This document shows positions 10,680-27,981 of a stretch of DNA of 64,000 bases, piece by piece. The position numbers and the translations under genes are program-made. Within the stretch, counting starts at the first letter, position 1, and every line of letters starts with the position of its first letter. The DNA comes from Candidatus Faecousia faecavium. GTDB taxonomy: Bacteria > Bacillota > Clostridia > Oscillospirales > Oscillospiraceae. Under the pieces are notes generated by a model. The model worked only from the letters and a program-made list of their open reading frames with translations. It searched no databases and was not told the DNA's origin. The DNA lies in the NCBI GenBank assembly GCA_018712645.1, contig DVGO01000056.1, positions 1-64,000 on the forward strand, read 5' to 3'.

Positions 10680-11039
10680 GTGAAAACAAAGGATTGGATT
10701 GCCCTGTTGTCCGTGATTTTATTGGTGTGCGGGCTCTTGAGCATCTGGGTTCTCTCCCCAGGCGAAAGCGCCGATTTTGCCGAAATCCGCTCTCAGGGAA
10801 CTCTTATCAAAACCGTTAACCTGCATGTAGATCAAACCTTTACGGTGGAAACACCCCAGGGCGGGCAGAATGAGGTCACCGTATCCGGCGGCCGGATTGC
10901 GGTAACCAGCGCCAACTGTCCCGATCATCACTGCATGCAGCGAGGATTCTGCAGCGGCGGAACGCCCATTGTATGCCTTCCCAACCAGCTGGTCATCCAA
11001 TTCACCGGTCAGCAGGAACTGGATGCAGCTGTTGGATAA
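10680..11039 (+). CDS. NusG domain II-containing protein (secreted or membrane-anchored)
   Basis: A 119-residue protein of the NusG_II family (PF07009). It has one N-terminal membrane segment (about residues 7-25) and then a small beta domain that includes CPDHHCMQRGFC, a cysteine-rich loop characteristic of the family. The function is not established; relatives often lie near quinone, FMN-binding or ApbE genes, none of which is seen here. Start GTG 10680 follows AGGAGG by seven bases; the upstream frame lacks a ribosome site. Confidence 0.8.
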   Translation: MKTKDWIALLSVILLVCGLLSIWVLSPGESADFAEIRSQGTLIKTVNLHVDQTFTVETPQGGQNEVTVSGGRIAVTSANCPDHHCMQRGFCSGGTPIVCLPNQLVIQFTGQQELDAAVG

Positions 11040-11066
11040 AAACATCGGAAATTGGAAAAATTGTGC

Positions 11067-11095
11067 TTGACAAACGCTACCCCATCGTGTATAAT
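11067..11095 (+). promoter_or_regulatory. Consensus promoter of tRNA-Val
   Basis: TTGACA (11067-11072), a 17-bp spacer, TATAAT (11090-11095): a full consensus sigma-A promoter about 34 bases before the tRNA. Confidence 0.85.
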
Positions 11096-11128
11096 GCGTC
11101 ATGTGCCTGAGCGACGGCATCGAATTAT

Positions 11129-11204
11129 GGACGATTAGCTCAGCTGGTAGAGCATGCGCTTGACGTGCGCAGGGTCAGCGGTTCGAGTCCGTTATCGTCC
11201 ACCA
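11129..11204 (+). tRNA. tRNA-Val (anticodon GAC)
   Basis: Perfect acceptor GGACGAT/ATCGTCC, D arm GCTCAGCTGGTAGAGC, anticodon stem TGCGC/GCGCA around TTGACGT (anticodon GAC), T loop TTCGAGT and encoded CCA. Its last eight bases and the following terminator stem are repeated at 31477-31503, making it the candidate integration site of the downstream island. Confidence 0.96.
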
Positions 11205-11224
11205 TACATGAAAAATCCGAACTT
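11197..11224 (+). other. Candidate attL site at the tRNA-Val 3' end
   Basis: GTCCACCA (the last eight bases of the tRNA), eight bases, then AAATCCGAACTT. The same two blocks, seven bases apart, recur at 31477-31503 at the end of the serine recombinase gene. I infer an attachment-site duplication. Serine recombinases need little sequence identity, so the exact crossover is not defined. Confidence 0.45.
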
Positions 11225-11252
11225 GTTCCCCGTCGGGGACGGGTTCGGATTT
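11213..11252 (+). terminator. Terminator after tRNA-Val
   Basis: AAATCCGAAC pairs with GTTCGGATTT, enclosing CCCCGTCGGGG, and is followed by CTTCTCT. If the island model is right, this copy belongs to the element, and the native tRNA terminator is the one at 31492-31530. Confidence 0.7.
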
Positions 11253-11289
11253 CTTCTCTATATCAAAGATATTACATACTGAGCCTGTG

Positions 11290-11320
11290 CCCCCGGTTTT
11301 GCCTGCCGCAAAACCGGGGG
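11290..11320 (+). terminator. Second strong hairpin upstream of tnpV
   Basis: CCCCCGGTTTTGC (11290-11302) pairs with GCAAAACCGGGGG (11308-11320), followed by GCTTTGT. It isolates tnpV from tRNA transcription. Confidence 0.5.
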
Positions 11321-11389
11321 GCTTTGTACATTCGACGAAAGATTCTTCCTTCTGTACAATAGCAGTACCAACCAAAAGGAGGATTGCAT

Positions 11390-11737
11390 ATGAAAATTCA
11401 GTATATTCGCGTCGGAGACTACTACATCCCAGACCTGACGCTGACGGAAGAATCCTGCCCCATCGGCAAGTGGGGGCGAATGCACCGGGACTATCTGAGA
11501 GAGCACAAGCCGATTCAGTACAACTGTCTGCTCCTGTCCGGCAAGCTGTGGTCATACCTTGCAGACCTGAATGAGCAGGCGCAGGACAGACTGGAGCGGA
11601 TGATCGACCAGATGAAGGTATCTGAGGGAATCACGGAATCGCTGAAAGCCAGCGACCCAATGACATGGGTGCAGCGTATGAACAATATCCGAGCCAGAGC
11701 CGAGGCAATTGTCAGGGAGGAGCTGATCTTTGTATGA
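11390..11737 (+). CDS. tnpV: TnpV family transposon protein
   Basis: A 115-residue protein matching the TnpV family first seen in clostridial Tn4451-type elements: IGKWGRMHRDYLREH in the N-terminal half and WVQRMNNIRARAEAIV near the C-terminus are characteristic. The role is unknown; it accompanies mobile elements that use large serine recombinases. ATG 11390 follows AAAAGGAGG by seven bases. Its stop overlaps the next start in ATGA. Confidence 0.82.
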   Translation: MKIQYIRVGDYYIPDLTLTEESCPIGKWGRMHRDYLREHKPIQYNCLLLSGKLWSYLADLNEQAQDRLERMIDQMKVSEGITESLKASDPMTWVQRMNNIRARAEAIVREELIFV

Positions 11738-12030
11738 ACATGGAAGAATACTTCCGGGCATTGGAAACCTATGTGGCGTCCCGCAAGCTGAATCTTGGAG
11801 ACGGCGAATCTATCCTGTCGCTTCTCTATGAAGCTTATGGCGATGCAAACCGCATAGACGATGACCAGGTCAAAGCGGATTTCGCTGAGTTGTATCGTTT
11901 GCTGAACGGAATGCCCCTGCGAGAAATGGACTGGATTATCAACCCTGTCTGTGCGCTCTGCCGAGATCATGAACGGAATGGATTTGTGCATGGCGTGCAG
12001 GTGGGCATACGGTTGGCACAGGAAATATAG
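11734..12030 (+). CDS. DUF6809 family protein
   Basis: A 98-residue acidic, mostly helical protein (MNMEEYFRALETYV at the start, GFVHGVQVGIRLAQEI at the end). It resembles the small DUF6809 proteins that repeatedly accompany tnpV on clostridial elements. Function unknown. It is translationally coupled to tnpV by the ATGA overlap, and GGGAGGAGC precedes the start. Confidence 0.65.
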   Translation: MNMEEYFRALETYVASRKLNLGDGESILSLLYEAYGDANRIDDDQVKADFAELYRLLNGMPLREMDWIINPVCALCRDHERNGFVHGVQVGIRLAQEI

Positions 12031-12182
12031 AATGTAGAATAATCAATATACGCAATGCCTCAACCCCGGAAAACGGAGCTGAGGCTTTTGCTATTATCGG
12101 AGCGAAGGCTTTTTGCTACGGGGCACCATCGCAATCGAATGGGATTTGTTGCAGTCATATTGCGCAAAAAGTGTTTTTTTAA

Positions 12183-12347
12183 ATTGTACGGACTGCAAGT
12201 AATTGTGATAAACACAGCAAATACAAAGCTTTTAATGTTAATCCGATTGACAAATTTATAGAAGAATGGTACAGTGATACCGAAGGTTTACGCAAGGAAT
12301 CTGTGCAATATTTTGTCCTATGCAAAGATGTTGCTCATCTTATATAA
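12183..12347 (+). pseudogene. Possible decayed coding fragment in the 12031-12360 gap
   Basis: The 330-base gap after the DUF6809 gene holds no intact gene. One frame from 12183 to a TAA at 12345 gives a protein-like stretch (NPIDKFIEEWYSDTEGLRK followed by a hydrophobic helix). It opens just after a run of seven T's (12174-12180), where a shift would join it to an upstream frame. It has no start codon or ribosome site. A TTGACA-17-TACAGT promoter overlaps it. I do not recognise the family; chance is possible. Confidence 0.25.
12247..12275 (+). promoter_or_regulatory. Promoter of the isomerase-kinase operon
   Basis: TTGACA (12247-12252), a 17-bp spacer, TACAGT (12270-12275). It would give a leader of about 80 bases before the sugar isomerase. 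Confidence 0.55.
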
Positions 12348-12360
12348 AGGAGAGATACGA

Positions 12361-13050
12361 ATGAAGCGTTCCGAAGTTAACAAGGCTCTTCGTGAGCTGG
12401 AAGCCATGTGCAAAAAATACCACTGCTACCTGCCGCCTTTCTGCCACTTTACCCCGGAGGAATGGGAAGCCAAGGGTCACGAGTATGACGAGGTCCGGGA
12501 CTGCTGCCTGGGCTGGGACATCACCGACTACGGCAAGGGCGACTTTGACAAGATGGGCTTCTCCCTCATTACCATCCGCAATGGCAGCCAGACTATGAAG
12601 GACAAGTATCCCAAGGTTTACGCCGAGAAGCTACTGTACCTGAAGGAGGGCCAGTATTCCCCCAACCATTTCCACTGGTATAAAACTGAGGATATCATCA
12701 ACCGAGGCGGCGGAAACGTGCTGATTCGGGTGTATAACTCCCATCCCGACGAGTCCATTGACTATGAAAGCGACGTGACAGTACATACCGACGGCAGAAC
12801 CTACACCGTTCCCGCCGGAACCCAGATCCGCCTGACCCCCGGTGAAAGCATTTATATCCAGCAGTACCTCTACCACGACTTCGAGGTGGAGCCGGGCACC
12901 GGCGATGTGCTGCTGGGCGAGGTCAGCCAGTGCAATGACGACAGTAACGATAACCGCTTCAATCCTCCCATGGGCCGGTTCCCTGCCATCGAAGAGGACG
13001 AAGCGCCTTACCGCCTGCTGTGCACGGAATATCCCGAGGCGAAGGACTGA
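12361..13050 (+). CDS. D-lyxose/D-mannose family sugar isomerase
   Basis: A 229-residue cupin-fold isomerase. Known members interconvert D-lyxose with D-xylulose and D-mannose with D-fructose using a divalent metal. The metal-binding set is visible as NHFHWYKTEDI near residue 105, with a distal His in YLYHDFE near 166. AAAGGAGAG lies eight bases before the ATG. The next gene, 15 bases on, is a fructokinase-type kinase, so D-mannose to D-fructose to fructose 6-phosphate is a sensible route. D-lyxose to D-xylulose would need a xylulokinase, which is absent here. Confidence 0.85.
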   Translation: MKRSEVNKALRELEAMCKKYHCYLPPFCHFTPEEWEAKGHEYDEVRDCCLGWDITDYGKGDFDKMGFSLITIRNGSQTMKDKYPKVYAEKLLYLKEGQYSPNHFHWYKTEDIINRGGGNVLIRVYNSHPDESIDYESDVTVHTDGRTYTVPAGTQIRLTPGESIYIQQYLYHDFEVEPGTGDVLLGEVSQCNDDSNDNRFNPPMGRFPAIEEDEAPYRLLCTEYPEAKD

Positions 13051-13065
13051 AAAGGAGGACGAACG

Positions 13066-14013
13066 ATGATTGACGTAGTGGCATTGGGTGAACTGCTTAT
13101 TGATTTTGCGGCCAAATCCACGGATACCAGCGGCTATCCCACCATGGCTGCAAACCCCGGCGGCGCTCCCGGCAATTTTCTGGCAGCGCTGAACGCCTAC
13201 GGTAAGAAAACCGCTTTTCTGGGAAAAGTAGGCAACGATGCCTTCGGCCATCTGTTGCTGGGCACCCTGAAGGCTGCGGGCATCGAGACAAAGAGCGTTG
13301 TGGTGGACGATTCCGTGTTCACCACCTTAGCCTTCGTGACCTTTGATGAAAACGGCGACCGCTCCTTTTCCTTCGCCCGGAAACCCGGCGCGGACACGCA
13401 GCTTACCTGGGAGGAGATTGACAAATCTCTCATTGATGACGCCAGAGTGTTCCATTTCGGCACCCTGAGCCTGACAGACGAACCCGTCCGCACAGCAACC
13501 CAAAGGGCCGTTGCCTATGCCAAGGAAAAGGGAAAGCTCATCACCTGTGACCCGAACCTGCGCAAGCCTCTGTGGCCCAGCGAGGATGCGGCACGGGAGC
13601 AGATGTTGTGGAGCCTCCGACAGGCGGATGTGGTGAAAATCAGCGATAACGAGGTGGAGTTCCTGTGGAACTGCACCCCGGAGGAGGGCGCGGATAAGCT
13701 GCTGAAGGAATTCGGTGTGTCTCTTGCTTTGGTGACCCTGGGCCCCGAGGGCTGTCTGCTGAAGACGGAAAACGCATCCTTCCGGGCTGTCTGTCCCAAG
13801 GTTCATCCCATCGACACCACCGGCGCGGGAGACATCTTTGGCGGCAGCGCGCTATCCCGGCTGCTGGAACTGGAGAAACCTATTGATGCCCTGAAAGAAG
13901 AAGATCTTGCCTACATTGGCAGCTTTGCTGCCGCCGCTGCCAGCCTGTCCACGGAAGCCTCCGGCGGCATCCCCAGCATCCCGGAAAAGGGTGCGGTTTT
14001 GAAGGCTATGTAA
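13066..14013 (+). CDS. PfkB-family carbohydrate kinase, probably fructokinase
   Basis: A 315-residue ribokinase-like sugar kinase. The N-terminal GELLIDF with NPGGAPGNFLAAL near residue 28 binds sugar. The C-terminal DTTGAGDIFGG near 250 holds the catalytic Asp and anion hole. Sequence layout and length fit fructokinase rather than ribokinase or 2-keto-3-deoxygluconate kinase, but specificity cannot be read directly. GGAGG precedes the ATG. It is cotranscribed with the isomerase and followed by a terminator at 14018. Confidence 0.85.
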   Translation: MIDVVALGELLIDFAAKSTDTSGYPTMAANPGGAPGNFLAALNAYGKKTAFLGKVGNDAFGHLLLGTLKAAGIETKSVVVDDSVFTTLAFVTFDENGDRSFSFARKPGADTQLTWEEIDKSLIDDARVFHFGTLSLTDEPVRTATQRAVAYAKEKGKLITCDPNLRKPLWPSEDAAREQMLWSLRQADVVKISDNEVEFLWNCTPEEGADKLLKEFGVSLALVTLGPEGCLLKTENASFRAVCPKVHPIDTTGAGDIFGGSALSRLLELEKPIDALKEEDLAYIGSFAAAAASLSTEASGGIPSIPEKGAVLKAM

Positions 14014-14017
14014 GGAA

Positions 14018-14053
14018 AAACCCGGAGATTCCTCAGAATTTCCGGGTTTCTTC
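14018..14053 (+). terminator. Terminator of the isomerase-kinase operon
   Basis: AAACCCGGA (14018-14026) pairs with TCCGGGTTT (14041-14049), then CTTC. Confidence 0.65.
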
Positions 14054-14090
14054 ACGCCTTGTGGCGCTGGGATGCGGGGCATCAGGCGAA

Positions 14091-14119
14091 TTGACAAAAG
14101 AATCGAGAAACCGTATAAT
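14091..14119 (+). promoter_or_regulatory. Consensus promoter of the ROK regulator
   Basis: TTGACA (14091-14096), a 17-bp spacer, TATAAT (14114-14119), a perfect sigma-A promoter 40 bases before the ROK start. Confidence 0.85.
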
Positions 14120-14159
14120 GAGGACAAAAGGGCAGAACAAAGGAAGGTGAGCTTTGGAT

Positions 14160-15260
14160 ATGGCGCAGAAACCACGCAACGCAGACTACACAAAAGAATA
14201 TAACCGCAAAGCGGTCCTGCGCATCCTGCGGCATAACGCCGTGAGCCGGGCAGAGCTGGCCCGGGCCACGGGTCTGACCCGGGCGGCCACCTCCCTGATT
14301 GTGGAGGACCTGCGGAATCTGGGAATTGTGACAGAGCTTGCCCCTCAGTCCGTGGGCCGGGGCCGCAGCGCCACACCCCTTGCTCTGCGCCCCGACTGCT
14401 ATTACGCATTGGCAGTGGATTTGGCCAGAAAGGGCTGCAGTGTGGGCCTGTGTGATATGGCCGGGAATCTGCTTCAGTGCCGAAAGATTCCGGAGCAGGA
14501 CAATCTGGCCATCATCGCGGAGCTGAAAGCCATACTGGAAACCGTGGAACGGGACAAGGTTCTGGGTATCGGTATCAGCTCCCCTGGCCCGCTGGACTGC
14601 GAAAATGGCCGGATTTTGAACCCGCCCCGGTTTGAACGCTGGCACGGGGTGGAAATCAGCCAGCTTCTGTCCGAAGCGCTGGATATGCCTGCCTATCTGG
14701 AACACGATGTCTGCGCTTTGGCGCTGCACCAGCTGGAAACGGGGCAAAGCCAGAATTTTATGCTGGTGTTCGTCGACATCGGTATCGGCGCAGCCATTAT
14801 GTCCGGCGGAAAGAGAAATTCCAAATACTTCACAGGGGAACTGGGCCACACCACCATCCGCTTCGATGGACGGCTCTGCGAGTGCGGGAACCGGGGCTGC
14901 CTGGAAACCTACGCCTCCATCCCAGCGCTGCTGGAAGGCTCGGAGTTTTCCAGTTGGGAGAACCTGATTGACAATGTGGATAAAAACCCAGAGGCCAAAA
15001 GGCTTCTGGATCAGGAGGCGGTCTATCTTTCTGCCGGTCTGATTAACCTGATAAACCTGATCCCCGTGGATACCATCTATTTGGCTGGAGATATCTGCTA
15101 CCGTTATGAGCTGCTGGCGCAGCGATTACAGCGGGAGATCAGTGCCAAGGCACTGCATCGGAGCAAGGGTAATATCAAAATCTACCCCTCCAGCCAGGAT
15201 CCAAACGTGGGCGTTCTCGCGGCGGCGGATGTGGTTTTTTTCAGGTTTTTCACCGTATAG
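14160..15260 (+). CDS. ROK-family transcriptional repressor (NagC/XylR type)
   Basis: A 366-residue regulator. The N-terminal winged helix-turn-helix reads HNAVSRAELARATGLTRAA near residue 27. The kinase-like domain carries the ROK zinc motif CECGNRGCLE near 240 and GELGH just before it. ROK repressors release DNA on binding a sugar or sugar phosphate. Placed between the catabolic pair and the sensor cassette, it likely controls one or both. ATG 14160 lies ten bases after AGGAAGGTGA; TTG 14154 is a weaker alternative. Confidence 0.88.
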   Translation: MAQKPRNADYTKEYNRKAVLRILRHNAVSRAELARATGLTRAATSLIVEDLRNLGIVTELAPQSVGRGRSATPLALRPDCYYALAVDLARKGCSVGLCDMAGNLLQCRKIPEQDNLAIIAELKAILETVERDKVLGIGISSPGPLDCENGRILNPPRFERWHGVEISQLLSEALDMPAYLEHDVCALALHQLETGQSQNFMLVFVDIGIGAAIMSGGKRNSKYFTGELGHTTIRFDGRLCECGNRGCLETYASIPALLEGSEFSSWENLIDNVDKNPEAKRLLDQEAVYLSAGLINLINLIPVDTIYLAGDICYRYELLAQRLQREISAKALHRSKGNIKIYPSSQDPNVGVLAAADVVFFRFFTV

Positions 15261-15430
15261 GCATTGCGCCGACGTCAAGAAAGCAGGAAGGCCTTTGGGG
15301 AAAGCTTGGAGAGAAACGGAGATTCGTTCCCAGTTTGCACAACCCTCCACGGTCTCCATACCTTTGACAGGGGGAAAACGCCCTACAGAATAGAAAAACA
15401 ACGCAAGCATATAAGAAAGAGGAAGCTGAC

Positions 15431-16408
15431 ATGAATCATATTCGCAGAAGATTCACCTCCTTAGCGGCTATTTCCATGGTTGTCACCCCGCTGCTGATCA
15501 CAATTTACCTGTTGTTCTGGAGCCCCGGTGATTTATCTGCCAGCCAGACTGGAAATCAGCGGGTGTTTGGCGCAACCTATATGACGATGAACAATCCATA
15601 CTTCCAAGTGCTGGACACACAGATTCAGGCGCTTCTCGAGCTTCGTGGAGACGTACTGCTCACCCGGGATGCCGCTATGGATCAGCAGCGGCAAAACCAG
15701 GAGATTCAGGAATTGGTGGATGCGGGTGTCTGTGCCATTTTCATGACGCCGGTAGAGTGGGACACCTCAAAAGGCGGTGTTCAGATTGCCGCCGCCGCGG
15801 GTGTGCCGGTTATCGTTGTGGATGCCCCGATACAGGACTCGGAGCTGGCGGCCTGCTCGGTTTTGTCGGATAACTACCAGGCGGGGGTGTTGTGCGCCCA
15901 GCACCTGCTGTCTGTCCGGGACAGTGCAAAAATTCTCCTGCTGGAACACATCACCGCCCGCTCCGGTGCGGACCGAATCCAGGGCTTTAAGGACACCATT
16001 GCCGGCCATGAGGGCTTCGAAATTCTGGGTTCCGGTGAATCGGATGGACAAATCGAAAACGCCATGCCGGTGATGGAGCAGCTGCTGCGGCAATATCCGG
16101 ATGCCGATGTCCTAATGGCGCTCAATGACCCCAGCGCCTTCGGCGGACTGGCGGCGATTCAGGGAGCAGGCCTGTCGGATCGATTTCTGGTGTACAGCGT
16201 GGACGGCTCCCCTGAGGGGAAAGCCATGGTCAGCAGCGGCTTCCTCACGGCCACCTGCGCTCAGTTCCCCTCCAAGGTTGCCGAGGAAGCGGTGAATCAG
16301 GCCTATGCCGCCATAGACGGCGGCTGTGAATGCAGTGAGGTCATTGTCCCAGTGGAGCTGCTGACAGCAGAAAACGTGAACCAATATGGAATAGATGGGT
16401 GGCAGTAA
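15431..16408 (+). CDS. Membrane-anchored periplasmic-binding-protein-like sugar sensor
   Basis: A 325-residue type-1 periplasmic-binding fold (ribose/galactose-binding or LacI sensor type). A single N-terminal membrane segment (about residues 12-31) is followed by FGATYMTMNNPYFQVL, the usual first strand and helix. MTPVEWD, VIVVDAP and FLVYSVDG segments mark the hinge and ligand cleft. There is no lipobox, so it is anchored by its signal helix. It overlaps the histidine kinase gene by one base (TAATG). No permease lies beside it, so I infer a sensory partner of the kinase, like XylFII in the XylFII-LytS-YesN system. Confidence 0.78.
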   Translation: MNHIRRRFTSLAAISMVVTPLLITIYLLFWSPGDLSASQTGNQRVFGATYMTMNNPYFQVLDTQIQALLELRGDVLLTRDAAMDQQRQNQEIQELVDAGVCAIFMTPVEWDTSKGGVQIAAAAGVPVIVVDAPIQDSELAACSVLSDNYQAGVLCAQHLLSVRDSAKILLLEHITARSGADRIQGFKDTIAGHEGFEILGSGESDGQIENAMPVMEQLLRQYPDADVLMALNDPSAFGGLAAIQGAGLSDRFLVYSVDGSPEGKAMVSSGFLTATCAQFPSKVAEEAVNQAYAAIDGGCECSEVIVPVELLTAENVNQYGIDGWQ

Positions 16409-17733
16409 TGAAAACGGAACGAAATCTGACGAGCATCGCAGCCGCGATGTTTGCATTGAATTTTTCTATCCTCGCCTTTTACTCGCTGATCTGTGTGACC
16501 ACCACTTTTCGGATATGTGACACTTTGGGTGCACATGATTTTTTGACCTCCGTACGGCAGATACCCCGATATCCCTGGCAAATGCCGGTTCAAACGCTCA
16601 GTTTATTTGCTTTGCTGTGTACGGTAAGCTTTTTCAAGATTTTCCGCCCCATCGAGCATTTTCCCTTACGGGTCGTCATTTGCGTCACAGAAATAGCCCT
16701 GTGCGCCGGAATCATCGTCTCTTTGAATTTCTATTACAGCGGTGTCGCCCTGCTTGTACTTGCTGATCTCGTCCACTATCTGCGCAGCAATCGAATGCGG
16801 CTGTGTTTTATCGTGATACTCAGCCTGATGTTTGCCTTTGGCCGATACGAGATTGTTGAACAATTCACGAGGTGTATCGCATTCAGCGCCTACCTCAGCT
16901 ACTACAACCCGATAGCCCAGAGCTGCTTTACCAGCTTGGAAAGCCTGATGGTCTGCCTGAACATTCTCCTGTTTGTTTTGTATATGATTTTGCTGTTTAC
17001 CGGTCAAAAAGAAGAAAATGCCCGCATTCGCAAGCTGAATGAACAGCTTAACCAGGCCAACGACCAGCTTCGGGACTATGCTGTAAACATGGAGCGCATG
17101 ACGCAGATGCGGGAACGCAACCGGCTGGCCCGGGAGATTCACGACACTCTGGGACACACGCTTACCGGCATCATCATGGGGGCAGATGCGGGACTGGCTC
17201 TGTTTGATGTTGCGCCGGAGGAATCCAAGAAACGGATTCAGGTGGTTGCCCAATCCGCTCGTGACGGACTTACAGACGTGCGTCGATCCATCAAGGCTCT
17301 GCGGCCTGACGCGTTGGAACATTCCTCCCTTGCGCAGGCACTGGAGGGGCTGGTTGAGAATTTCCGTCTCACGACATCCGCCCAAATTGCCTATTACCAG
17401 GAGGCGGGTGAGCTGAATCTGGATGTGGATGAAGAGGACGCGCTGTACCGGGTTGTTCAGGAGGGACTGACGAACGCTGTCCGTCATGGCAGAGCTGACC
17501 GCATTTCTATCCGGGTCACTCGAACCGGGGACTTGGTTACCGTCAGCATTCGGGACAACGGTATCGGCTGTGGGACGCTGGTGGAAGGCTTTGGGCTGCG
17601 CCACATGCGCGAACGCCTGGATATGCTGGGCGGCACCCTGTCCTATGGGAATCTGGAGCAGGGTGCGCAGGATGGGTACACAGGCTTTTTCATTACTGTG
17701 GGCTTGCCCATCAGAAATAGAAAGGGGGAGTAA
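16408..17733 (+). CDS. Sensor histidine kinase, NarL/HisKA_3 type
   Basis: A 441-residue membrane kinase. The N-terminal 195 residues hold about six hydrophobic segments, then a coiled-coil linker, then the phosphoacceptor helix with REIHDTLGH (His 245) and an ATPase domain with QEGLTNAVRHG and DNGIGCG. It has little extracytoplasmic sequence of its own, which fits input through the separate binding proteins encoded on either side. I chose ATG 16408 (overlapping the previous stop) over GTG 16399. Its stop is three bases before the regulator start. Confidence 0.88.
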   Translation: MKTERNLTSIAAAMFALNFSILAFYSLICVTTTFRICDTLGAHDFLTSVRQIPRYPWQMPVQTLSLFALLCTVSFFKIFRPIEHFPLRVVICVTEIALCAGIIVSLNFYYSGVALLVLADLVHYLRSNRMRLCFIVILSLMFAFGRYEIVEQFTRCIAFSAYLSYYNPIAQSCFTSLESLMVCLNILLFVLYMILLFTGQKEENARIRKLNEQLNQANDQLRDYAVNMERMTQMRERNRLAREIHDTLGHTLTGIIMGADAGLALFDVAPEESKKRIQVVAQSARDGLTDVRRSIKALRPDALEHSSLAQALEGLVENFRLTTSAQIAYYQEAGELNLDVDEEDALYRVVQEGLTNAVRHGRADRISIRVTRTGDLVTVSIRDNGIGCGTLVEGFGLRHMRERLDMLGGTLSYGNLEQGAQDGYTGFFITVGLPIRNRKGE

Positions 17734-17736
17734 TCT

Positions 17737-18402
17737 GTGATTAAGGTTTTGATTGTAGACGACCAGGAATTATTTCGCGAGAGCCTAAAGGTGGTTCTGA
17801 GTGTCAGCGAAAATATCCGGGTAACCGATGCGGTATCCGGTGTGTCCCAGGCGCTGAGAAGCGCGGAGCAGGAGCGCCCGGATGTGGTTTTAATGGATAT
17901 TCGTATGCCCGGCATGGACGGCGTGGAGGGAACCAGGTTGCTGAAAAAACGGTGGCCTGATGTCAAGATCATTGTGCTTACCACTTTTGATGACGATGAA
18001 TACATATTTGGGGCGCTGAAAAATGGAGCAAGCGGTTACCTTCTAAAAGGGAGCAGCATCGCCAAATTGTCCGAGAGCATCCGAATTGCCTATGAAGACG
18101 GCGCGATTATTACCCCCACTGTGGCCACAAAGGTGATCCACCAGTTTTCACACATGGCGCAGGGTTCATCCCGGCTCCAGGTGGACAAAGAAGCCGTCAA
18201 GGATATCAGCAGGAGCGAGTGGCAGATCATCCAGACCGTGGGGGGCGGGATGTCCAACAAGGAGATTGCTCAGGAGCTTTCCCTATCCGAGGGGACCGTT
18301 CGCAACTCCATCAGCAACATCCTGTTCAAGCTGGGTCTGCGGGACCGCACACAGCTGGCAATCTGGGCCGTACAAACCGGGGCGGTGAATCGTCCGCTAT
18401 GA
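17737..18402 (+). CDS. NarL/FixJ-type response regulator
   Basis: A 221-residue regulator. The receiver has the acidic pair VDDQ, phosphoacceptor Asp 54 in LMDIRMPGMDG, the switch Thr in LTTFDDDE and Lys in YLLKGSS. The C-terminal LuxR-type helix-turn-helix reads GMSNKEIAQELSLSEGTVRN. GTG 17737 follows AAAGGGGGAG. It is coupled to the kinase upstream and overlaps the lipoprotein gene downstream by four bases. The direct repeats at 19815-19855, upstream of the importer operon, are its likely targets. Confidence 0.92.
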   Translation: MIKVLIVDDQELFRESLKVVLSVSENIRVTDAVSGVSQALRSAEQERPDVVLMDIRMPGMDGVEGTRLLKKRWPDVKIIVLTTFDDDEYIFGALKNGASGYLLKGSSIAKLSESIRIAYEDGAIITPTVATKVIHQFSHMAQGSSRLQVDKEAVKDISRSEWQIIQTVGGGMSNKEIAQELSLSEGTVRNSISNILFKLGLRDRTQLAIWAVQTGAVNRPL

Positions 18403-19691
18403 AAAAATGGTTTGTAAAACGGAATGTGGTGGCACTGCTGACCCTGATGCTGTGCCTTTGTCTGGCAGGGTGCGTTGGAAATCAGGAAACAGTACTCACC
18501 ATTGGTGTGTATTCGGGAAGCTACTGGAATACGCCCAATGGAAATTGCTACCAGATTCTGGACGATGTTATCACCCTATTTGAAGAATCGCACCCCGGAG
18601 TGAAAGTCGAGTACGTCAGCGGCATTCCCGCCAATGATTACAGCGAGTGGCTGGCAGAGCAAATTATGAAGGGGACAGAGCCGGATTTGTACTTTGTACT
18701 GCCTGAGGATTTTGATCTTTTGGTATCTTCCGGGGCATTGGCACAATTGGATGAATGGATTGCCGGAGACCCGGCGTTTGACACATCTGCCTATTATGAG
18801 CCCTGTCTGCGCTCAGGGCAGTCCAAAGGCCGCCAGTATGCCCTGCCCCACGAGAGCGTTCCCACCATCATGTTCGTAAATAAGACGCTGTTGGAAGCCA
18901 ACGGCATAGACATGCCGGATAACAGCTGGACCTGGGAAGATTTTTACAACATCTGCGAACGGATCACCAATGTGAGCCTACATCAGTACGGCGTATATGG
19001 CTACTCCTGGCTGGATGCCATGTATTCCAACGGTGCGTCATTGTTTTCTGAAGACGGGCGAAGCTGCTATCTGGCTGAGGAGAATGTCCTGCAGGCCATT
19101 CAGTTTACCAAGCGGCTGGGGGAACTGAATGGCGGTTACAGCGTTACTGTCCGAGACTTTGATGTGGGCAGGGTAGCCTTCCGCCCCCTCCTTTACTCGG
19201 AATACCGGGCCTATCAGCCCTACCCCTGGCGGGTAAAGAAATACTCCGCTTTTCAGTGGGACTGTGTCAGTATGCCCGCGGGCCCTTCCGGCTCCAATAT
19301 TTCTGAGCTTCACACCATGATGTTGGGAATCAGCTCCCGCACCCGCCATGAAGAGCTTGCTTGGGAATTATGTAAACTCTTGTCCATAGACGAGAATGTG
19401 CAGCGGGAGCTTTACACCCATTCTCATGGTATTTCTCCACTCCCCGCTGTCGCGGAGGATCCCGAACTACTGCTCCAGATTCACCATGACATCCCCGAAG
19501 AAATCGGCTTCTCCCCCGATATGATTCACCGTATTATGAGCAACGCCGTGGTTGCACCCAGATTCGACGCGTACAGCCAGGCGATGATTATGGTGGAGAG
19601 TGCGATACAGGAGGCTGCCGGCAATCAGCTTGGGCAGAGCGGGATGCTCATTGCTCAGAGTGAAATCAATATTTTTCTGAATAAATCATAG
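18399..19691 (+). CDS. Lipoprotein extracellular solute-binding protein (ABC sugar type, family 1)
   Basis: A 430-residue lipoprotein. The signal peptide ends in a lipobox LAGC (Cys near 24), and the mature part resembles maltose/multiple-sugar-binding proteins: LTIGVYSG, a SHPGVKVEYVSG strand-helix pair, EPDLYF and SWTWEDFYNICE. The start overlaps the regulator stop (ATGA). Such proteins usually sit beside MalFG-type permeases, and none is here. That, and the coupling to the two-component genes, suggests a sensing role or use of a distant permease. A terminator follows at 19703. Confidence 0.85.
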   Translation: MKKWFVKRNVVALLTLMLCLCLAGCVGNQETVLTIGVYSGSYWNTPNGNCYQILDDVITLFEESHPGVKVEYVSGIPANDYSEWLAEQIMKGTEPDLYFVLPEDFDLLVSSGALAQLDEWIAGDPAFDTSAYYEPCLRSGQSKGRQYALPHESVPTIMFVNKTLLEANGIDMPDNSWTWEDFYNICERITNVSLHQYGVYGYSWLDAMYSNGASLFSEDGRSCYLAEENVLQAIQFTKRLGELNGGYSVTVRDFDVGRVAFRPLLYSEYRAYQPYPWRVKKYSAFQWDCVSMPAGPSGSNISELHTMMLGISSRTRHEELAWELCKLLSIDENVQRELYTHSHGISPLPAVAEDPELLLQIHHDIPEEIGFSPDMIHRIMSNAVVAPRFDAYSQAMIMVESAIQEAAGNQLGQSGMLIAQSEINIFLNKS

Positions 19692-19702
19692 CGTTTTTTG
19701 CA

Positions 19703-19743
19703 GAGCAAGGGCCTGCCTGGGTTTTCTGGGCAGGCCCTTGCTC
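19703..19743 (+). terminator. Strong hairpin ending the sensor cassette
   Basis: GAGCAAGGGCCTGCC (19703-19717) pairs perfectly with its complement at 19729-19743. The T-run is short, so efficiency is uncertain. Confidence 0.6.
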
Positions 19744-19814
19744 GGTGTTTTGCACAAAAAAATAGGAGTTGGTTTTTCTGAATTCGATAGCCAATTAGAA
19801 AACTTAAGAAAAAC

Positions 19815-19880
19815 ATGACAAATGTAATCTGTAATTTATGACAAATAGCACTGTATGAATATGGGCTGTTTTTGTATCAT
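19815..19880 (+). promoter_or_regulatory. Activator-type promoter with two direct repeats, HAD-importer operon
   Basis: Two copies of ATGACAAAT followed 4-5 bases later by CTGTA start at 19815 and 19838, 23 bp apart. A -10 box TATCAT lies at 19875-19880 with no good -35 box. With a start near 19887, the repeats centre near -68 and -45, classic activator positions on one helix face. The NarL-type regulator encoded just upstream is the obvious candidate to bind. Confidence 0.5.
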
Positions 19881-19935
19881 ATAGGCAGAAAAACCTGAGC
19901 CACAGAGAGAAACAGAGAGGAGGCGGTGCAATCGG

Positions 19936-20778
19936 ATGCGTACCTATTCTATCGTTTTTTTGGACATTGACGGTACCTTGCTGGACTCGCGACATCAGGT
20001 CATGCCCTGCACCCAGAATCACCTGAGATACCTGCACGGACGGGGTGTTCCCATCATCCTGTGCTCCGCCCGTCCGCCAGGGGGCGTAAATCTGGTTGCC
20101 AGACAGGTTGGCCTGCACGGCCCTATGGCGTGCTATAACGGAGGACTGGTTTTTGATGAGAACAGCACCATACTGCGGGATGTCGGAATCGATCCCCAAC
20201 TGGTTCTAAGCTTCAAGCAGTTTGTCTCAGAGCGTTTTCCGGAGCTGGTGGTAAGCGCCTATTTGTACGATGTGTGGATGGCAGAAGATCCCCATCACCC
20301 CTTGATTCAGCAGGAGGCAGATATATCCCAGTGTACGCCTCTTGGGGGCTCTCTGGAGCGAGCCGCAGATGCCGCGTCCCACGTCCACAAGCTGCTGTGT
20401 ATTGGTGACGCGATGCGCATACGGGCTTTGCAAAATGAAATTCCACGTTATTTTCCCCAACTGATGGCGCTTCGCTCCAAAGCCACTTATCTGGAAATTC
20501 TCGCCCCGGAAAGCACCAAAGACAAAGCAGCACAGGTGCTGTTGACACACTATGGCTTGGCAGCAGAGGACGCGGTGGCATTCGGCGACAATGATGTGGA
20601 TATTGCAATGCTGGAATACTGTGGTCTGGGTATCGCCATGGGAAATGCCCCAAGGCAGGTAAAGGAAGCAGCGGATTATGTGACGGCTTCCAACGATGAG
20701 GAGGGCGTCTTCATCGCGCTGAAGGGACTGCGGCTGAAAGCGCCAGACGCTGCCAGGAATCCGGAGAAAACGCGATGA
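19936..20778 (+). CDS. HAD-superfamily Cof-type sugar phosphatase
   Basis: A 280-residue Cof/HAD-IIB phosphatase. Motif I is FLDIDGTLLD at the N-terminus, motif II CSARPP near 43, and the C-terminal motifs III and IV are the Lys in STKDKA near 194 and AFGDNDVDIAML near 217. The family removes phosphate from sugar phosphates and similar metabolites, and specificity is not readable. It lies 42 bases before the importer ATPase and shares its promoter. It may deal with excess sugar phosphate or an unmetabolised phosphorylated analogue. Confidence 0.88.
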   Translation: MRTYSIVFLDIDGTLLDSRHQVMPCTQNHLRYLHGRGVPIILCSARPPGGVNLVARQVGLHGPMACYNGGLVFDENSTILRDVGIDPQLVLSFKQFVSERFPELVVSAYLYDVWMAEDPHHPLIQQEADISQCTPLGGSLERAADAASHVHKLLCIGDAMRIRALQNEIPRYFPQLMALRSKATYLEILAPESTKDKAAQVLLTHYGLAAEDAVAFGDNDVDIAMLEYCGLGIAMGNAPRQVKEAADYVTASNDEEGVFIALKGLRLKAPDAARNPEKTR

Positions 20779-20820
20779 GCGTGTTTCTCTCTGCAATAGA
20801 GTAATTGAAGGAGGTTGCAC

Positions 20821-22362
20821 ATGGAAGATTCTATCATTCTCCAAATGAGGGAAATCGTCAAGGTATTTCCGGGTGTGCGCGCGTTGGATGGCGTAAGCCT
20901 GGAGGTGCGCCGGGGTGAGATCCATTCGATCTGCGGAGAAAACGGCGCCGGAAAATCCACACTGATGAAAGTCCTGTCTGGCGTTTATCCCTATGGCTCT
21001 TATGAAGGCCAGATCATTTATATGGGAGAGGAGGCCAAGTTTAAAAATATCAAGGAATCGGAAAACGCAGGAATCGTCATCATCCATCAGGAGCTGACCA
21101 TGATCCCCGAGCTTTCCATTACCGAGAATATTTTTATGGGCAATGAGATCGTAAGGCACGGCCTCATTGACTGGGAGGAAGCCCGTCAGCGGACCACGGA
21201 ATTGCTATGCCGTGTGGGGCTGAATCTGAACCCCAACACCCTGATCAAGAATCTGGGTGTGGGCCAGCAGCAGCTGGTGGAAATCGCAAAGGCATTGTCC
21301 AAGAATGTCAAGCTGCTGATCCTGGATGAACCCACCTCTGCTCTGAATGAGGCTGATTCCGCCAATCTTCTGGAACTGATGCGGGACCTGAAGAGCAAAG
21401 GCATCACCTGTATCATGATCTCCCACAAACTCAATGAGATTGCGGCGATCTCCGATGGGGTTACTGTAATCCGCGATGGACGCACTGTCGAGACCTACCC
21501 GGTGGAAGCAGGTCATGTAGATGAGGATCGGATCATCAGCTCCATGGTAGGCCGCGCCATTGAGAACCGCTATCCGCCTCATGAGTCCCACCCCGGTGAG
21601 ATTATCTTTGAGGTATCCGACTGGTGCGTGGAGGATCCCAACGTCCCGGGCAGAATGGTCTGTAAAAACTCCGGTTTCCATGTCCGTGCCGGCGAGGTCG
21701 TGGGGTTTGCCGGCCTGATGGGCGCTGGACGGACAGAACTGATGCGCTCCATTTTCGGACACAATTACGGCATTTTCCACGGCGGTACCGTGAAAATGAA
21801 AGGTCGGGAGCTTTCTCTGCCTTCCGTTTCCGCGGCCATTGAAGCAGGCATCGCCTATGTTCCCGAAGACCGGAAGAACTTAGGACTCAATCTGCTGGAC
21901 TGCATCCGGATGACGATTGTATCAGCAAACCTGAAGGCAATCTTAAGAGGCAGACTTCTGGATTCTGACAAGGAATTGCAGGCAGCTGAGCAGAGCAGAA
22001 AAGCACTCCGGATCAAAACAAGTTCCGTGGATGCCGGTGTGACAACGTTGTCTGGCGGCAACCAGCAGAAAGTGGTTCTGGGTAAGTGGATGTTTACGCA
22101 GCCGGAGGTTTTGATTCTTGACGAACCCACCCGCGGCATCGACGTTGGTGCCAAGTACGAGATTTACCGCCTGATCCATGAGATGGCGGATCAGGGCAAG
22201 GCAGTGATCCTGGTCTCTTCGGAGCTGCCGGAACTGCTGGGTATGTCGGATCGTATCTATACCATCTGTGAAGGACGCATCACGGGTGTGATAGACAGCA
22301 AGGATGCAGACCAGGAAAAGTTGATGCGGTTGATGACAACGACATCTGACGTAAAATCATAA
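20821..22362 (+). CDS. mmsA: Multiple-monosaccharide ABC importer, ATP-binding protein
   Basis: A 513-residue double ATPase of the sugar CUT2 family (MglA/XylG/GguA). The first domain has GENGAGKSTLM, VGQQQLVEIAKAL and ILDEPTSAL. The second has a degenerate P-loop GLMGAGRTELMRS, with LSGGNQQKVVLGKW and ILDEPTRGIDVG. The mismatch in the second Walker A is normal for this family. ATG 20821 follows AAGGAGG by six bases. It pairs with the MmsB-type permease and ChvE-type binding protein that follow, importing monosaccharides such as arabinose, galactose, xylose or a mannose/lyxose-type sugar. Confidence 0.92.
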   Translation: MEDSIILQMREIVKVFPGVRALDGVSLEVRRGEIHSICGENGAGKSTLMKVLSGVYPYGSYEGQIIYMGEEAKFKNIKESENAGIVIIHQELTMIPELSITENIFMGNEIVRHGLIDWEEARQRTTELLCRVGLNLNPNTLIKNLGVGQQQLVEIAKALSKNVKLLILDEPTSALNEADSANLLELMRDLKSKGITCIMISHKLNEIAAISDGVTVIRDGRTVETYPVEAGHVDEDRIISSMVGRAIENRYPPHESHPGEIIFEVSDWCVEDPNVPGRMVCKNSGFHVRAGEVVGFAGLMGAGRTELMRSIFGHNYGIFHGGTVKMKGRELSLPSVSAAIEAGIAYVPEDRKNLGLNLLDCIRMTIVSANLKAILRGRLLDSDKELQAAEQSRKALRIKTSSVDAGVTTLSGGNQQKVVLGKWMFTQPEVLILDEPTRGIDVGAKYEIYRLIHEMADQGKAVILVSSELPELLGMSDRIYTICEGRITGVIDSKDADQEKLMRLMTTTSDVKS

Positions 22363-22386
22363 GGAAGGAAAGGATGGAATCGTCTT

Positions 22387-23598
22387 ATGAATAAAATTAA
22401 AAAAGTATTGGGAGACGACCTGCACAAATACACAATGGTAATCGCGTTGATTGCACTGATCGTTTTCTTCAATATTGCCTCGGGCGGAAAAATGATTACC
22501 CCCTCCAATTTCCAGAATCTTTTGTCCGGTAATGCGTACGTGCTGATTCTGGCCATCGGTATGCTGATGGTCATTGTCATCGGCCAGATCGACTTGTCCG
22601 TTGGTTCCGTTGCCGGTTTCTGCGGAATGGTCATGGCCATCGCATTCCAGAAATGGAATTTCCCCTGGTGGGCAGCGGTGCTGCTGGGCATGGGAATCGG
22701 TGTGCTGGTTGGCGCATGGAACGGCTTCTGGGTGGCAAAGATGGGGATTCCCGGCTTTATCACTACCCTGGGCAGCATGATGATTTTCCGCGGCGCTGTC
22801 ATCTGGATCTCCCACTCTATCTCCGTCCCCGCTCCTTCGGAACTGAAACTGTTCGGCGCCGGTCATCTGCCTGAGTGGGGCCCTGCCTTTACGGGGATGA
22901 ACAACTCCACGCTGTTGCTGGGCATCTTCGCTATCGCGTTTCTGATTTACGCAATGCTTCGTCAGCGCGCCCGTGCGAATGAGCTGCATGCAAATAAAGA
23001 ACCTCTGTGGCCTGTTGTGATCCGCATCGCACTGGGTACTGTTGCAATTGGTTACCTGACCTGGCTGTTTGGCACCGGACGCCCCGGCACCTCGTTCCCA
23101 ATCCCTGGCCTGATTCTGGTAATCCTGGTCATCATCTACCACACCATCACCCAGAAAACCAGATTTGGACGCCATATCTACGCAGTCGGCGGTAATAAGA
23201 ACGCCGCTGCCCTGTCCGGTGTCAACGTGCAGAAGACCTATTTCCTGACTATGCTGAATATGTCTTTCCTGGCTGCACTGGCCGGCATTATGTTCGTGGG
23301 ACGCTCCACTGCGGCAGGCCCTTCCGATGGTACCAGCTGGGAGATGGATGCCATTGCATCTGTCTACATTGGTGGCGCGGCCGTTTCCGGCGGTGTTGGT
23401 ACCATTATGGCTACCATGGTCGGCGGTATGATGATGGCAGTTCTGAACTCCGGCCTGATGCTGCTGGGTGTCGGTGCCGACAAGACCCAAGTCATCAAGG
23501 GCCTGGTTCTGATGGCAGCCGTTGCCTTCGACGTTTACAATAAGCGTCCCGGACATGTCTCCATTACAAAGCGCCTGTTCAACATGAATAGGGCCTAA
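22387..23598 (+). CDS. mmsB: Multiple-monosaccharide ABC importer, permease
   Basis: A 403-residue CUT2 permease with about ten membrane segments. It has the family signature IDLSVGSVAGF near residue 66 and the cytoplasmic coupling stretch FGRHIYAVGGNKNAAALSGV near 260. One protein probably forms a homodimer across the membrane, as in GguB/XylH. The gene lies 24 bases after the ATPase gene and AAGGAAAGGA precedes it. The length and the long central loop fit the multiple-monosaccharide group rather than ribose RbsC. Confidence 0.92.
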   Translation: MNKIKKVLGDDLHKYTMVIALIALIVFFNIASGGKMITPSNFQNLLSGNAYVLILAIGMLMVIVIGQIDLSVGSVAGFCGMVMAIAFQKWNFPWWAAVLLGMGIGVLVGAWNGFWVAKMGIPGFITTLGSMMIFRGAVIWISHSISVPAPSELKLFGAGHLPEWGPAFTGMNNSTLLLGIFAIAFLIYAMLRQRARANELHANKEPLWPVVIRIALGTVAIGYLTWLFGTGRPGTSFPIPGLILVILVIIYHTITQKTRFGRHIYAVGGNKNAAALSGVNVQKTYFLTMLNMSFLAALAGIMFVGRSTAAGPSDGTSWEMDAIASVYIGGAAVSGGVGTIMATMVGGMMMAVLNSGLMLLGVGADKTQVIKGLVLMAAVAFDVYNKRPGHVSITKRLFNMNRA

Positions 23599-23695
23599 AG
23601 TAAAGAAGGTTCCCCTGCTGACAAATAATTCTGATGGATTTTTGACAGCCGGGCCTTAATAAAAACCAAATACACAATAGTAGGAGGAAAAAACA

Positions 23696-24829
23696 ATGAA
23701 AAAACTGTTCGCGTTGCTCTTGGTTCTGGTTATGGTCCTGTCCATGACTGCCTGCGGCGGTGGCCGTACCGAACCTGCTCCCACAGCCACTACCCCCGCT
23801 GCACAGCCCGCTGAGGCCGACAGCAGTGCTGAGGCTCCCGCTGCAGCCGGCGGCTTTGAGGCCGGCGCCACCATCGGCGTCTCCCTGCCTTGGCTGGGTA
23901 CCCAGAACTGGAAAGAAGCCGAAGAAATGTTCAAGTCTGAGCTGGAAGCTGCCGGCTTCAAGCCCATCATCCAGGCTGCTGACAATAAGGTTCCTACGCA
24001 GCAGCAGCAGATCGAATCTATGATTCAGAACGGCGCCAAGGTTATCGTTGTTGGCCCCATCGACGGCACCCAGCTGGGCGCTGTCCTGGAAGAGGCCAAG
24101 GCTGCCGGCGTTTATGTCATTGGTTATGACCGTCTCCTGGAGAATACCACCGGCGTTGACGGCGTGGTGCAGTTCGGCAGCGTCAAGACCGGTGAGCTGC
24201 AGGCTCAGGCTCTGCTGGATGGCCTGAAGGAAATGAAGGGCGAGGGTCCCTGGAACATCGAGCTGTTCGGCGGCGGCCCCGCTGACCCCAATGCTCCCAA
24301 CTTCTTCAAGGGCGCCATGAGCGTTCTGCAGCCCCTGATCGACGACGGCACGCTGACCGTTGTTTCCGGCCAGACTGACTTCACCCAGTGTGCTACCATG
24401 GACTGGGACAACTCCAAGGCACAGGCAAGAATGGACTCCCTGCTGTCCGGCTTCTACTCTGACAAGGAAATCCACGGTGTCCTGTCTCCCAACGACGGCA
24501 TCGCCCGTGCAATCATCACCTCCTGCGAGCAGGCAGGTCAGGAGATTCCCGCTATCTCCGGTCTGGACGCTGAGAACGAGTCCGTTGAGTGGGTCTGGTC
24601 TGGACGCCAGTACTCCACCGTTGCCAAGCCCACCGACGTCCTTGTGGGAAAGACCGTTGAGATCATCAAGTCCCTGCAGGCAGGCAACGGCATGCCTGCC
24701 ACCGATGTTCAGGTGAACAACGGCAAGATCGATGTTCTCGTCTACGAGCTGCCCCCTGTCGTGGTCACCAAGGACAATGCTAAGGAAGTCTTTGCCAACG
24801 ATGCCGGCCGTCTGGCACTGCTGAAATAA
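23696..24829 (+). CDS. chvE: ChvE-type monosaccharide-binding lipoprotein
   Basis: A 377-residue lipoprotein: signal peptide with lipobox MTAC (Cys near 20), a short Pro/Ala/Thr-rich linker, then a periplasmic-binding fold with IGVSLPWLGTQNW, VIVVGPIDGTQLG, YVIGYDRLL and a hinge around LSPNDGIARAII. It delivers sugar to MmsAB and could also feed the sensory system. GTAGGAGGAA precedes the ATG. Base composition at third positions is strongly biased (C-rich), typical of a highly expressed binding protein. A strong terminator follows at 24851. Confidence 0.92.
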   Translation: MKKLFALLLVLVMVLSMTACGGGRTEPAPTATTPAAQPAEADSSAEAPAAAGGFEAGATIGVSLPWLGTQNWKEAEEMFKSELEAAGFKPIIQAADNKVPTQQQQIESMIQNGAKVIVVGPIDGTQLGAVLEEAKAAGVYVIGYDRLLENTTGVDGVVQFGSVKTGELQAQALLDGLKEMKGEGPWNIELFGGGPADPNAPNFFKGAMSVLQPLIDDGTLTVVSGQTDFTQCATMDWDNSKAQARMDSLLSGFYSDKEIHGVLSPNDGIARAIITSCEQAGQEIPAISGLDAENESVEWVWSGRQYSTVAKPTDVLVGKTVEIIKSLQAGNGMPATDVQVNNGKIDVLVYELPPVVVTKDNAKEVFANDAGRLALLK

Positions 24830-24850
24830 GAATCCAATCGAAACATAACA

Positions 24851-24881
24851 AGGCGGCGGAAGGATTATCCTTCCGCCGCCT
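24851..24881 (+). terminator. Terminator of the importer operon
   Basis: AGGCGGCGGAAGGA pairs perfectly with its complement (24868-24881) around TTA; very stable, with no long T-run. Confidence 0.7.
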
Positions 24882-25000
24882 CAATACGGCTATCATCTGA
24901 ATGTGGCAAACCCTCTGGAGATCATCATAGCGGATGTTCAACCCAGGGGGTTTTTACGTTTTGGAATGAATGCTCACAAACCACTTTCCATTTGTGGGTA

Positions 25001-25357
25001 CTCATTTCAAAACGAGCTGGGATTCCAAAGGGATGGCAATTCCTTTGGCTCGGGGTCATCCAATAGGGGCGAGAGCGCCCTGTTGGCTGAGGATTCCAAA
25101 GGGACAGCGTTCCCTTAGCGGTGGTTTCCAAAGGCGGCAGCGCTGCCTTGGCGGGAAGAATCCAATGAAACCGGCGGTTTCGTGGCACACGATCTTGCTC
25201 GCAAGGTCTAGTGTGTTATACCTTTGGCGACCGTGGGTGGCGGAAAGGGATTGTTCGGGGCGGGAACAACCCCTTTCCGCCAGCCACAGAACAGGCGGAT
25301 TTTGGCGCGCCACGCGCTGAAATTCAGGATTTGCCCCTCGGCAAAATCCGCCTGTTC
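25001..25357. repeat. Array of hairpins with about 34-bp spacing, in a gene-free gap
   Basis: The 24882-25483 gap between convergent genes holds no credible ORF. Five imperfect hairpins of a common form (CCAAAGGG, a short loop, CCCTTTGG, then C) begin at 25025, 25060, 25096, 25128 and 25162, separated by 9-11-base linkers that mostly end in ATT or TTT. A smaller one (CTC...GAG) precedes at 25001. Larger hairpins follow at 25186-25215, 25238-25282 and 25289-25357, the last with perfect 16-bp arms. Stem bases vary while pairing is largely kept. This is not a CRISPR: repeats are not identical and spacers are too short. Confidence 0.65.
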
Positions 25358-25483
25358 GGGTGTAGGTGGTGTCGCGAAATGGAAAGGCAAAGCAAAGCGG
25401 AGCCTTGAAATGGAGCGGCATCACCGGGGGAGCCAGAGGTATATTAAGCCCCCGTCCCGCCGCAGCGACGCTACTCTCTCGCG

Positions 25484-26701: not shown

Positions 26702-26728
26702 GGGGCACCTCCTTCCTTTGTTTCAAAA

Positions 26729-27838: not shown

Positions 27839-27899
27839 CCAACCCTCCAAAATTGTTTTCGCTCATTATAGCACATATGTTCTATAATTGGAAGAGGGT

Positions 27900-27951
27900 T
27901 TGTCCTGTTTTTTGAAATGGGCTTGTCCTGCGATTAGCCTGTTTTTTGAAA
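27900..27951. repeat. Iteron-like direct repeats upstream of the primase genes
   Basis: CCTGTTTTTTGAAA occurs at 27904-27917 and 27938-27951 (34-bp spacing), and TTGTCCTG at 27900-27907 and 27923-27930. They lie in the divergent intergenic region before the CHC2/P4 primase genes, where an origin or regulator site of a replicating element would be. A TATAAT for the minus-strand operon lies near 27863. Confidence 0.45.
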
Positions 27952-27981
27952 ATTTCCCCATAACCATAGTGAGGAGGTAAA

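Follow-up and report, generated by a model that had tools for sequence, protein, structure and literature searches.

Known sensors and the locus under study

LevQRST of Streptococcus mutans senses fructose and mannose, which are its inducers, and is encoded by an operon in which levTSRQ is immediately followed by levDEFG, which encodes a fructose/mannose PTS (phosphotransferase system), and which includes two membrane-associated sugar-binding proteins. LevS has up to five predicted helices, and point mutants of LevQ show an altered response to sugars; LevQRST-like operons are listed for six further species, two of them clostridia, with C. acetobutylicum and Dorea longicatena named (PMC3043104). 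LevS belongs to the HPK7 kinases, where its subgroup has 6 to 8 helices, and LevR is a NarL-type regulator (PMC3353171). We analysed a stretch of 64,000 nucleotides from Candidatus Faecousia faecavium (assembly GCA_018712645.1, contig DVGO01000056.1, positions 1 to 64,000; hereafter the window), in which four genes at 15431-19691 very probably encode a four-component sensor of the LevQRST type that detects extracellular fructose, and probably mannose, and regulates an importer encoded at 19936-24829. A sequence-only reading of the window had named no described system of this composition, a statement that falls with LevQRST, whose composition and gene order are the same (PMC3043104). The composition is not new; what appears unusual is that the sensor is wired to an ATP-binding cassette (ABC) importer instead of a PTS.

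Other sensors resemble the locus less. XylFII-LytS-YesN of clostridia consists of the single binding protein XylFII, the kinase LytS and the AraC-type regulator YesN. The sequence-only reading had invoked it as a known case of a binding protein serving as kinase input; this is right for the input, but the analogy is looser than the one with LevQRST, given that the window has two solute-binding proteins (SBPs), a HisKA_3 kinase and a NarL/GerE regulator. CuaDSR, also of clostridia, shares this type of input; it has one binding protein, a CuaS with a large outside section and a CuaR of the YesN/AraC type, and controls an ABC importer (PMC10384115).

Composition and conservation of the cassette

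The open reading frames, junctions and families of the four co-directional genes, all on the forward strand, are as they had first been read, including the two different binding-protein folds and the NarL-class pair. They encode a LevT-like, type-1 (ribose-binding-like) sugar-binding protein with an N-terminal membrane anchor (SBP1; 15431..16408; Pfam Peripla_BP_4, 2.2e-42), a LevS-like histidine kinase (HK; 16408..17733, ATG start; HisKA_3 and HATPase_c), a LevR-like response regulator of the NarL/LuxR class (RR; 17737..18402, GTG start; Response_reg and GerE), and a LevQ-like, maltose-type, lipoprotein-like sugar-binding protein (SBP2; 18399..19691, ATG start; SBP_bac_1, 7.7e-21). SBP1 and HK overlap by 1 base, HK and RR are separated by 3 bases, and RR and SBP2 overlap by 4 bases. 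The order SBP1-HK-RR-SBP2 is the T-S-R-Q order of LevQRST (regulon fruAB), in which two membrane-held sugar-binding proteins likewise flank an HPK7/HisKA_3 kinase and a NarL-class regulator (PMC3043104). There is one HisKA_3 match in the window's genome.

A scan of named species genomes with an SBP2 alignment (tblastn, 1e-3 or better) gave 333 SBP2 relatives. We read the best 80 and established the status of the cassette in these; the remaining 253 are counted here as SBP2 matches only. Some of the 80 loci are close kin (L108/L110, L109/L111, L122/L130, L066/L067, L068-L070). The search for conserved adjacency found SBP1-HK-RR-SBP2 on one strand in 74/80 loci, and this order is therefore not due to chance. 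The six exceptions are three loci truncated by contig ends (L094, L127, L133), L104, where SBP1 is on the opposite strand, the rearranged L120, and L128, in which no RR was found.

The full-length kinase was present in 10/99 genomes: that of the window, seven congeneric ones (81-100%), and two from other families (39%). In nine further genomes of the 99, matches were weak or confined to the kinase core. SBP2 was matched at 1e-80 or better in 9/391 genomes (own included) sampled evenly from the window's class. In the class of an Erysipelotrichaceae genome, 24/394 genomes (that genome included) match SBP2 at 1e-25; among these, 23 reach 1e-119 or better and the last stands at 5e-28. The regions of 20 of the 23 showed the four genes in order in every case (20/20), with adjoining EIIA-EIID in 18/20.

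Properties of the four proteins

The structural model of the kinase (mean pLDDT 81.8, pTM 0.51) predicts about six membrane helices and just two short outside segments, at about 39-57 and 147-167 (sidedness being interpreted), in line with the earlier remark that it has almost no extracytoplasmic loop. Several membrane helices, little outside domain and the HPK7/HisKA_3 type also liken it to LevS (PMC3353171, PMC3043104). Among solved structures its core is nearest to DesK (Foldseek 5.2e-12, TM-scores to target near 0.47), the kinase of DesK-DesR of Bacillus subtilis. To our knowledge, DesK-DesR has no solute-binding partners. Similarly, no binding proteins are named for DesK-DesR and pneumococcal TCS11, whereas SBP1 and SBP2 almost always flank HK and RR in our loci. 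DesK-like thermosensors fall in a kinase subgroup other than that of LevS (PMC3353171).

Both binding proteins are predicted to be membrane-associated, as in LevQRST. In the window, SBP1 has a hydrophobic N-terminal segment and lacks a lipobox, and SBP2 carries a lipobox-like LAGC, a lipoprotein-like trait in which it differs from LevQRST. The N-terminus is predicted to be hydrophobic in 74/74 SBP1 and 80/80 SBP2 checked. A lipobox is found in 7/74 SBP1 and 18/80 SBP2, so that most SBP2 relatives have a hydrophobic N-terminus without one. The nearest solved chains of SBP1 are ribose-binding or similar sugar-binding proteins. SBP1 also matches PDB 2x7x, a chain listed as SENSOR PROTEIN, at 1.4e-23, which is weaker than its matches to ribose-binding proteins. 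We take this chain to be the Bacteroides fructose sensor BT1754. In BT1754 the binding domain is fused to a hybrid kinase; a type-1 binding-protein domain thus serves as sensor there too, but with no second SBP. The nearest solved structure of SBP2 (model pLDDT 89.4) is AbnE 6rjy by sequence, and 5f7v and 6rjy by fold.

We also compared residues named in LevQ with the SBP2 family. In L176, from the Erysipelotrichaceae-genome class, 5/6 of them stand at their own numbers, against at most 3/6 in the other 19 loci, several start choices having been tried per protein. Across the family, F261 and F292 never vary (82/82), Y254, D202 and E170 are the commonest letters at their positions (60, 48 and 44 of 82), and C161 is a misfit (F in 80/82). 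The residue-number check for LevT (SBP1) and LevS (HK) in 20 loci gave nothing clear.

A conserved candidate operator upstream of the transporter operon

A strong terminator-like stem-loop (19703..19743, forward strand; 19 pairs, 12 of them G-C, with a T-rich tail) closes the sensor cassette. Because it stands between sensor and importer, we rejected a single transcription unit and regard the two as separate. The terminator scan overall was no richer than shuffles (11 vs 9.3 sites), but no other stem in it is longer than this one. Scanned with Rfam, 11000-26000 yielded a tRNA and nothing else.

We propose as operator of the regulator the 14-nt dyad ATGACAAATGTAAT (ATGACA-N2-TGTCAT) at 19815-19828 on the forward strand, with a second half-site, TGACA, at 19839-19843, on the basis of conservation across loci. 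The core TGACAWWTGTCA, found in the window at 19816-19827, occurs with at most one mismatch within 300 bases 5' of the transporter operon in 58/63 loci, of both PTS and ABC types. The background is 0.56% of 3245 other 300-base segments from the same loci and 0.32% of shuffles. Two of the other five loci have two mismatches (L085, L120) and three are weaker (L079, L088, L132); L079 and L132 have exact dyad sites close to the called start or a little way inside it, and L088 a one-mismatch site inside the gene only. The dyad is rare 5' of SBP1 (8/69 loci). The pattern of dyad plus second half-site occurs once in the window's genome, and a reversed control pattern not at all. The conserved operator supports the control of the 19936-24829 operon that the sequence-only reading had suggested.

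The dyad is followed by a putative -10 hexamer of the importer operon, TATCAT (19875..19880, forward strand), 60 nt after the dyad start; this hexamer is absent from the list given by a general promoter scan of the window. TANNNT follows the start of the dyad by exactly 60 nt in 24/63 loci (one site per locus; L067, L069 and L070 left out of this count), and the next best distance is found in 9 loci. If the -10 is read correctly, this distance to a canonical -10 would place the window dyad at -72 to -59 of the presumed transcription start. S. mutans fruA is reported to require a dyad at -72 to -59, the likely target of LevR (PMC9241797); the comparison is one of position. In its letters, ATGACA-N2-TGTCAT resembles the DesR motif and the pneumococcal RR11 motif ATGACATTTGTCAT (PMC11034029). 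The nearest solved chains of RR are, in order, VraR, DevR, NarL and DesR, and because the first three are nearer we dropped a DesR-type label for RR drawn from the motif alone.

Probable transporter exchange beside a retained sensor

The absence of a permease, noted in the sequence-only reading, holds for the four genes themselves but not for their neighbourhood, where an importer of the CUT2 ABC type begins 1.1 kb 3' of SBP2. The proposed target operon, on the forward strand, opens with a HAD-IIB sugar-phosphatase-like hydrolase (19936..20778; Hydrolase_3, Cof subfamily), followed by a GguA-like ATPase (20815..22362; NF040905, 796 bits vs a cut-off of 810), a GguB-like permease (22387..23598; NF040906, 426.6 bits vs 450) and a ChvE-like transport SBP (23696..24829; NF040907, 304 bits vs 460). 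Upstream of the cassette, on the same strand, lie genes for a D-lyxose isomerase family protein (12361..13050; Lyx_isomer, 1.2e-98), a fructokinase-like sugar kinase of the PfkB family (13066..14013; PfkB; best NCBIfam fructokinase PRK09434, 180.9 bits, below the cut-off of 450) and a ROK-family regulator (14154..15260; ROK and a weak MarR_2). Mannose isomerase activity is known in the D-lyxose isomerase family. The window clade thus differs from LevQRST by having the HAD hydrolase and GguA-GguB-ChvE in place of the PTS, and by the fructokinase-like gene and D-lyxose isomerase upstream.

Most relatives are closer to the classic arrangement, with a mannose-family PTS (EIIC and EIID) adjoining the cassette in 53/80 loci; in L117 its Pfam families are EIIA-man, PTSIIB_sorb, EII-Sor and EIID-AGA. 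A HAD match is found in 55/80 loci and ChvE in 10/80. GguA- and GguB-like genes occur together in 12/80, including L090 and L120, whose ATPases reach only 377 and 416 bits; L090 carries both EIIC and EIID and the GguA- and GguB-like genes. The fructokinase-like gene is present in 6/8 ABC-type loci with enough upstream sequence vs 1/39 PTS-type loci (Fisher 1.7e-5, kinship ignored).

In a FastTree phylogeny of the four joined proteins (99 rows, L067 left out), the ten tips of the window clade are nested within a 20-tip clade (support 1.0). Eight of them have GguA and GguB, L072 has only a piece of GguB and ChvE, and L077 is truncated by a contig end. Nine of the other ten tips have a PTS, and L084 is truncated. 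A second locus with full GguA, GguB and ChvE, L137 (Lachnospiraceae), falls in another clade, of 23 tips (0.998), whose remaining members mostly bear a PTS, and has an exact dyad 190 bases 5' of GguA. Support at several inner nodes of the tree is low (0.5 or less, in some cases near 0). The best reading of the window clade is that an ABC importer took the place of an ancestral PTS as the target, the sensor and the operator probably being retained. We lean, with some reserve, towards the sensor having been re-wired at least twice independently, in the window clade and in L137, from PTS to CUT2 ABC importer, with the operator kept and the fructokinase-like gene gained; binding proteins that never fed a transporter would now stand beside an importer needing its own, third one. 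If so, ChvE might share the ligand, or even the kinase, with SBP1. Literature searches, judged mostly from their listings and with subscription journals largely uncovered, brought up no account of LevQRST adjoining an ABC importer.

We propose that SBP1 and SBP2, held at the membrane on the outside, would bind fructose or mannose and act on the kinase at its membrane helices and short outside segments, and the kinase would phosphorylate the regulator. The latter would then bind the dyad and adjacent half-site, just 5' of the weak promoter, and activate HAD-GguA-GguB-ChvE. Once imported, the free sugar would be used by two enzymes encoded upstream of the cassette, the fructokinase-like kinase and the D-lyxose isomerase.

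Some loci show further arrangements. A PTS enzyme I gene (PtsI-like) lies near the cassette in 11/80 loci (L117, L118, L123, L124 and others), as if a dedicated PTS were carried along. In L120, HK-RR-SBP2 precede two genes resembling SBP1 and an ATPase and permease of the CUT2 type with lower scores, which may be yet another pairing with a transporter. One Erysipelotrichaceae genome (RUG11122) has two cassettes, L088 and L095, the latter with no PTS but with Bmp-like and GH31 genes. L177 has the four genes without PTS, Ggu-like or operator match within 18 kb and possibly has a different target. In the window, the region behind the importer operon (25484-31517) may be a mobile element; judged by eye, 29937-31517 reads like a serine recombinase and 28622-30145 is helicase/primase-like.

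The likely ligand and alternative explanations

Neighbouring genes point to the sugar. In the 50 of the 80 loci used for these counts, mostly on longer contigs, GH32 lies at most 10 kb from the cassette in 7/50 genomes vs 0.65 expected (P 5.6e-6; the loci L108 and L110 being closely related), and a fructose-PTS EIIC is near in 4/50 vs 0.22 expected. A GH32 is seen in L098 (Clostridium acidisoli). In L131 (Anaerobutyricum hallii) there is a PTS EIIABC (PTS_EIIA_2, PTS_IIB, PTS_EIIC), counted as a fructose PTS via TIGR01427, along with a PfkB kinase. A mere clustering of sugar genes was rejected as the cause of the GH32 enrichment by a GH13 control, which gave 2 loci (L108 and L110) among the matches listed of 329; about 1 was expected, an estimate because the listed part is assumed to be 162 rows.

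The pocket of SBP1 was compared with what we take to be the sugar-pocket residues of RbsB. The positions matching N13, D89, R141, N190, D215 and Q235 are invariant in the aligned rows (79 sequences), and the one matching R90 is replaced by T (33 rows), A (28) or S (17). These six invariant positions suggest that SBP1 binds a sugar, likely of the same kind throughout the relatives, which the pocket does not name.

The same architecture might serve another sugar, as an arabinose, ribose, galactose or general monosaccharide sensor fitting GguAB-ChvE, an importer family named multiple monosaccharide. The proximity of SBP1 to ribose-binding proteins and of SBP2, by sequence, to an arabino-oligosaccharide-binding protein would agree with this. 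We nonetheless find it unlikely, because the neighbouring PTS, GH32, fructose-PTS and fructokinase-like genes indicate fructose and mannose, to which LevQRST responds (PMC3043104), and because pocket residues that are near invariant across PTS and ABC types make a single ligand likelier. It is somewhat less likely still that SBP1, kinase and regulator form the sensor and SBP2 is a scaffold without ligand, given the strongly conserved aromatic residues of SBP2 among relatives and the altered sugar response of LevQ point mutants (PMC3043104).

That the two SBPs are transport lipoproteins serving an ABC permease, the two-component pair being incidental, seems highly improbable. Both belong to transport SBP families in Pfam, and GguB lies 2.7 kb 3' of SBP2, but GguB has its own SBP, ChvE. 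SBPs routinely beside their own permeases were looked for and not found: BPD_transp_1-like permeases (seven queries, one of which, L152, contains stops) occur in 4/80 loci, the L126 copy ending 0.9 kb 5' of SBP1, and GguB-like permeases in 13/80, 10 of the 13 with their own ChvE. The frequent PTS counts against this explanation too, because a PTS uses no SBP, as does the universal hydrophobic N-terminus of SBP2 with so few lipoboxes. The proposal of an extracellular sugar sensor with two binding proteins coupled to a NarL-class two-component system is well supported.

Several points weigh against a fructose and mannose sensor of the LevQRST type. The homology to S. mutans LevQ, LevT, LevS and LevR was compared only indirectly. 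The window is without the PTS that belongs to the classic Lev locus and has an ABC importer in its place, whose GguA, GguB and ChvE scores are all under the NCBIfam cut-offs. The conserved ribose-type pocket of SBP1 alone names no sugar. Fructose is not the sole sugar in reach, because GH2, GH31 and GH13 genes also adjoin some cassettes, and the window's genome (89% complete) has no GH32 match.

Significance for the LevQRST family

An orphan-looking gut cassette is placed here in a characterised signalling family. The LevQRST family gains a likely operator and a wide distribution, one scan having yielded 333 SBP2 relatives, the best 80 of them read. That the same sensor with its operator accompanies two unrelated types of transporter amounts to a natural experiment, and the splitting of binding-protein sensors from transport therefore becomes testable.

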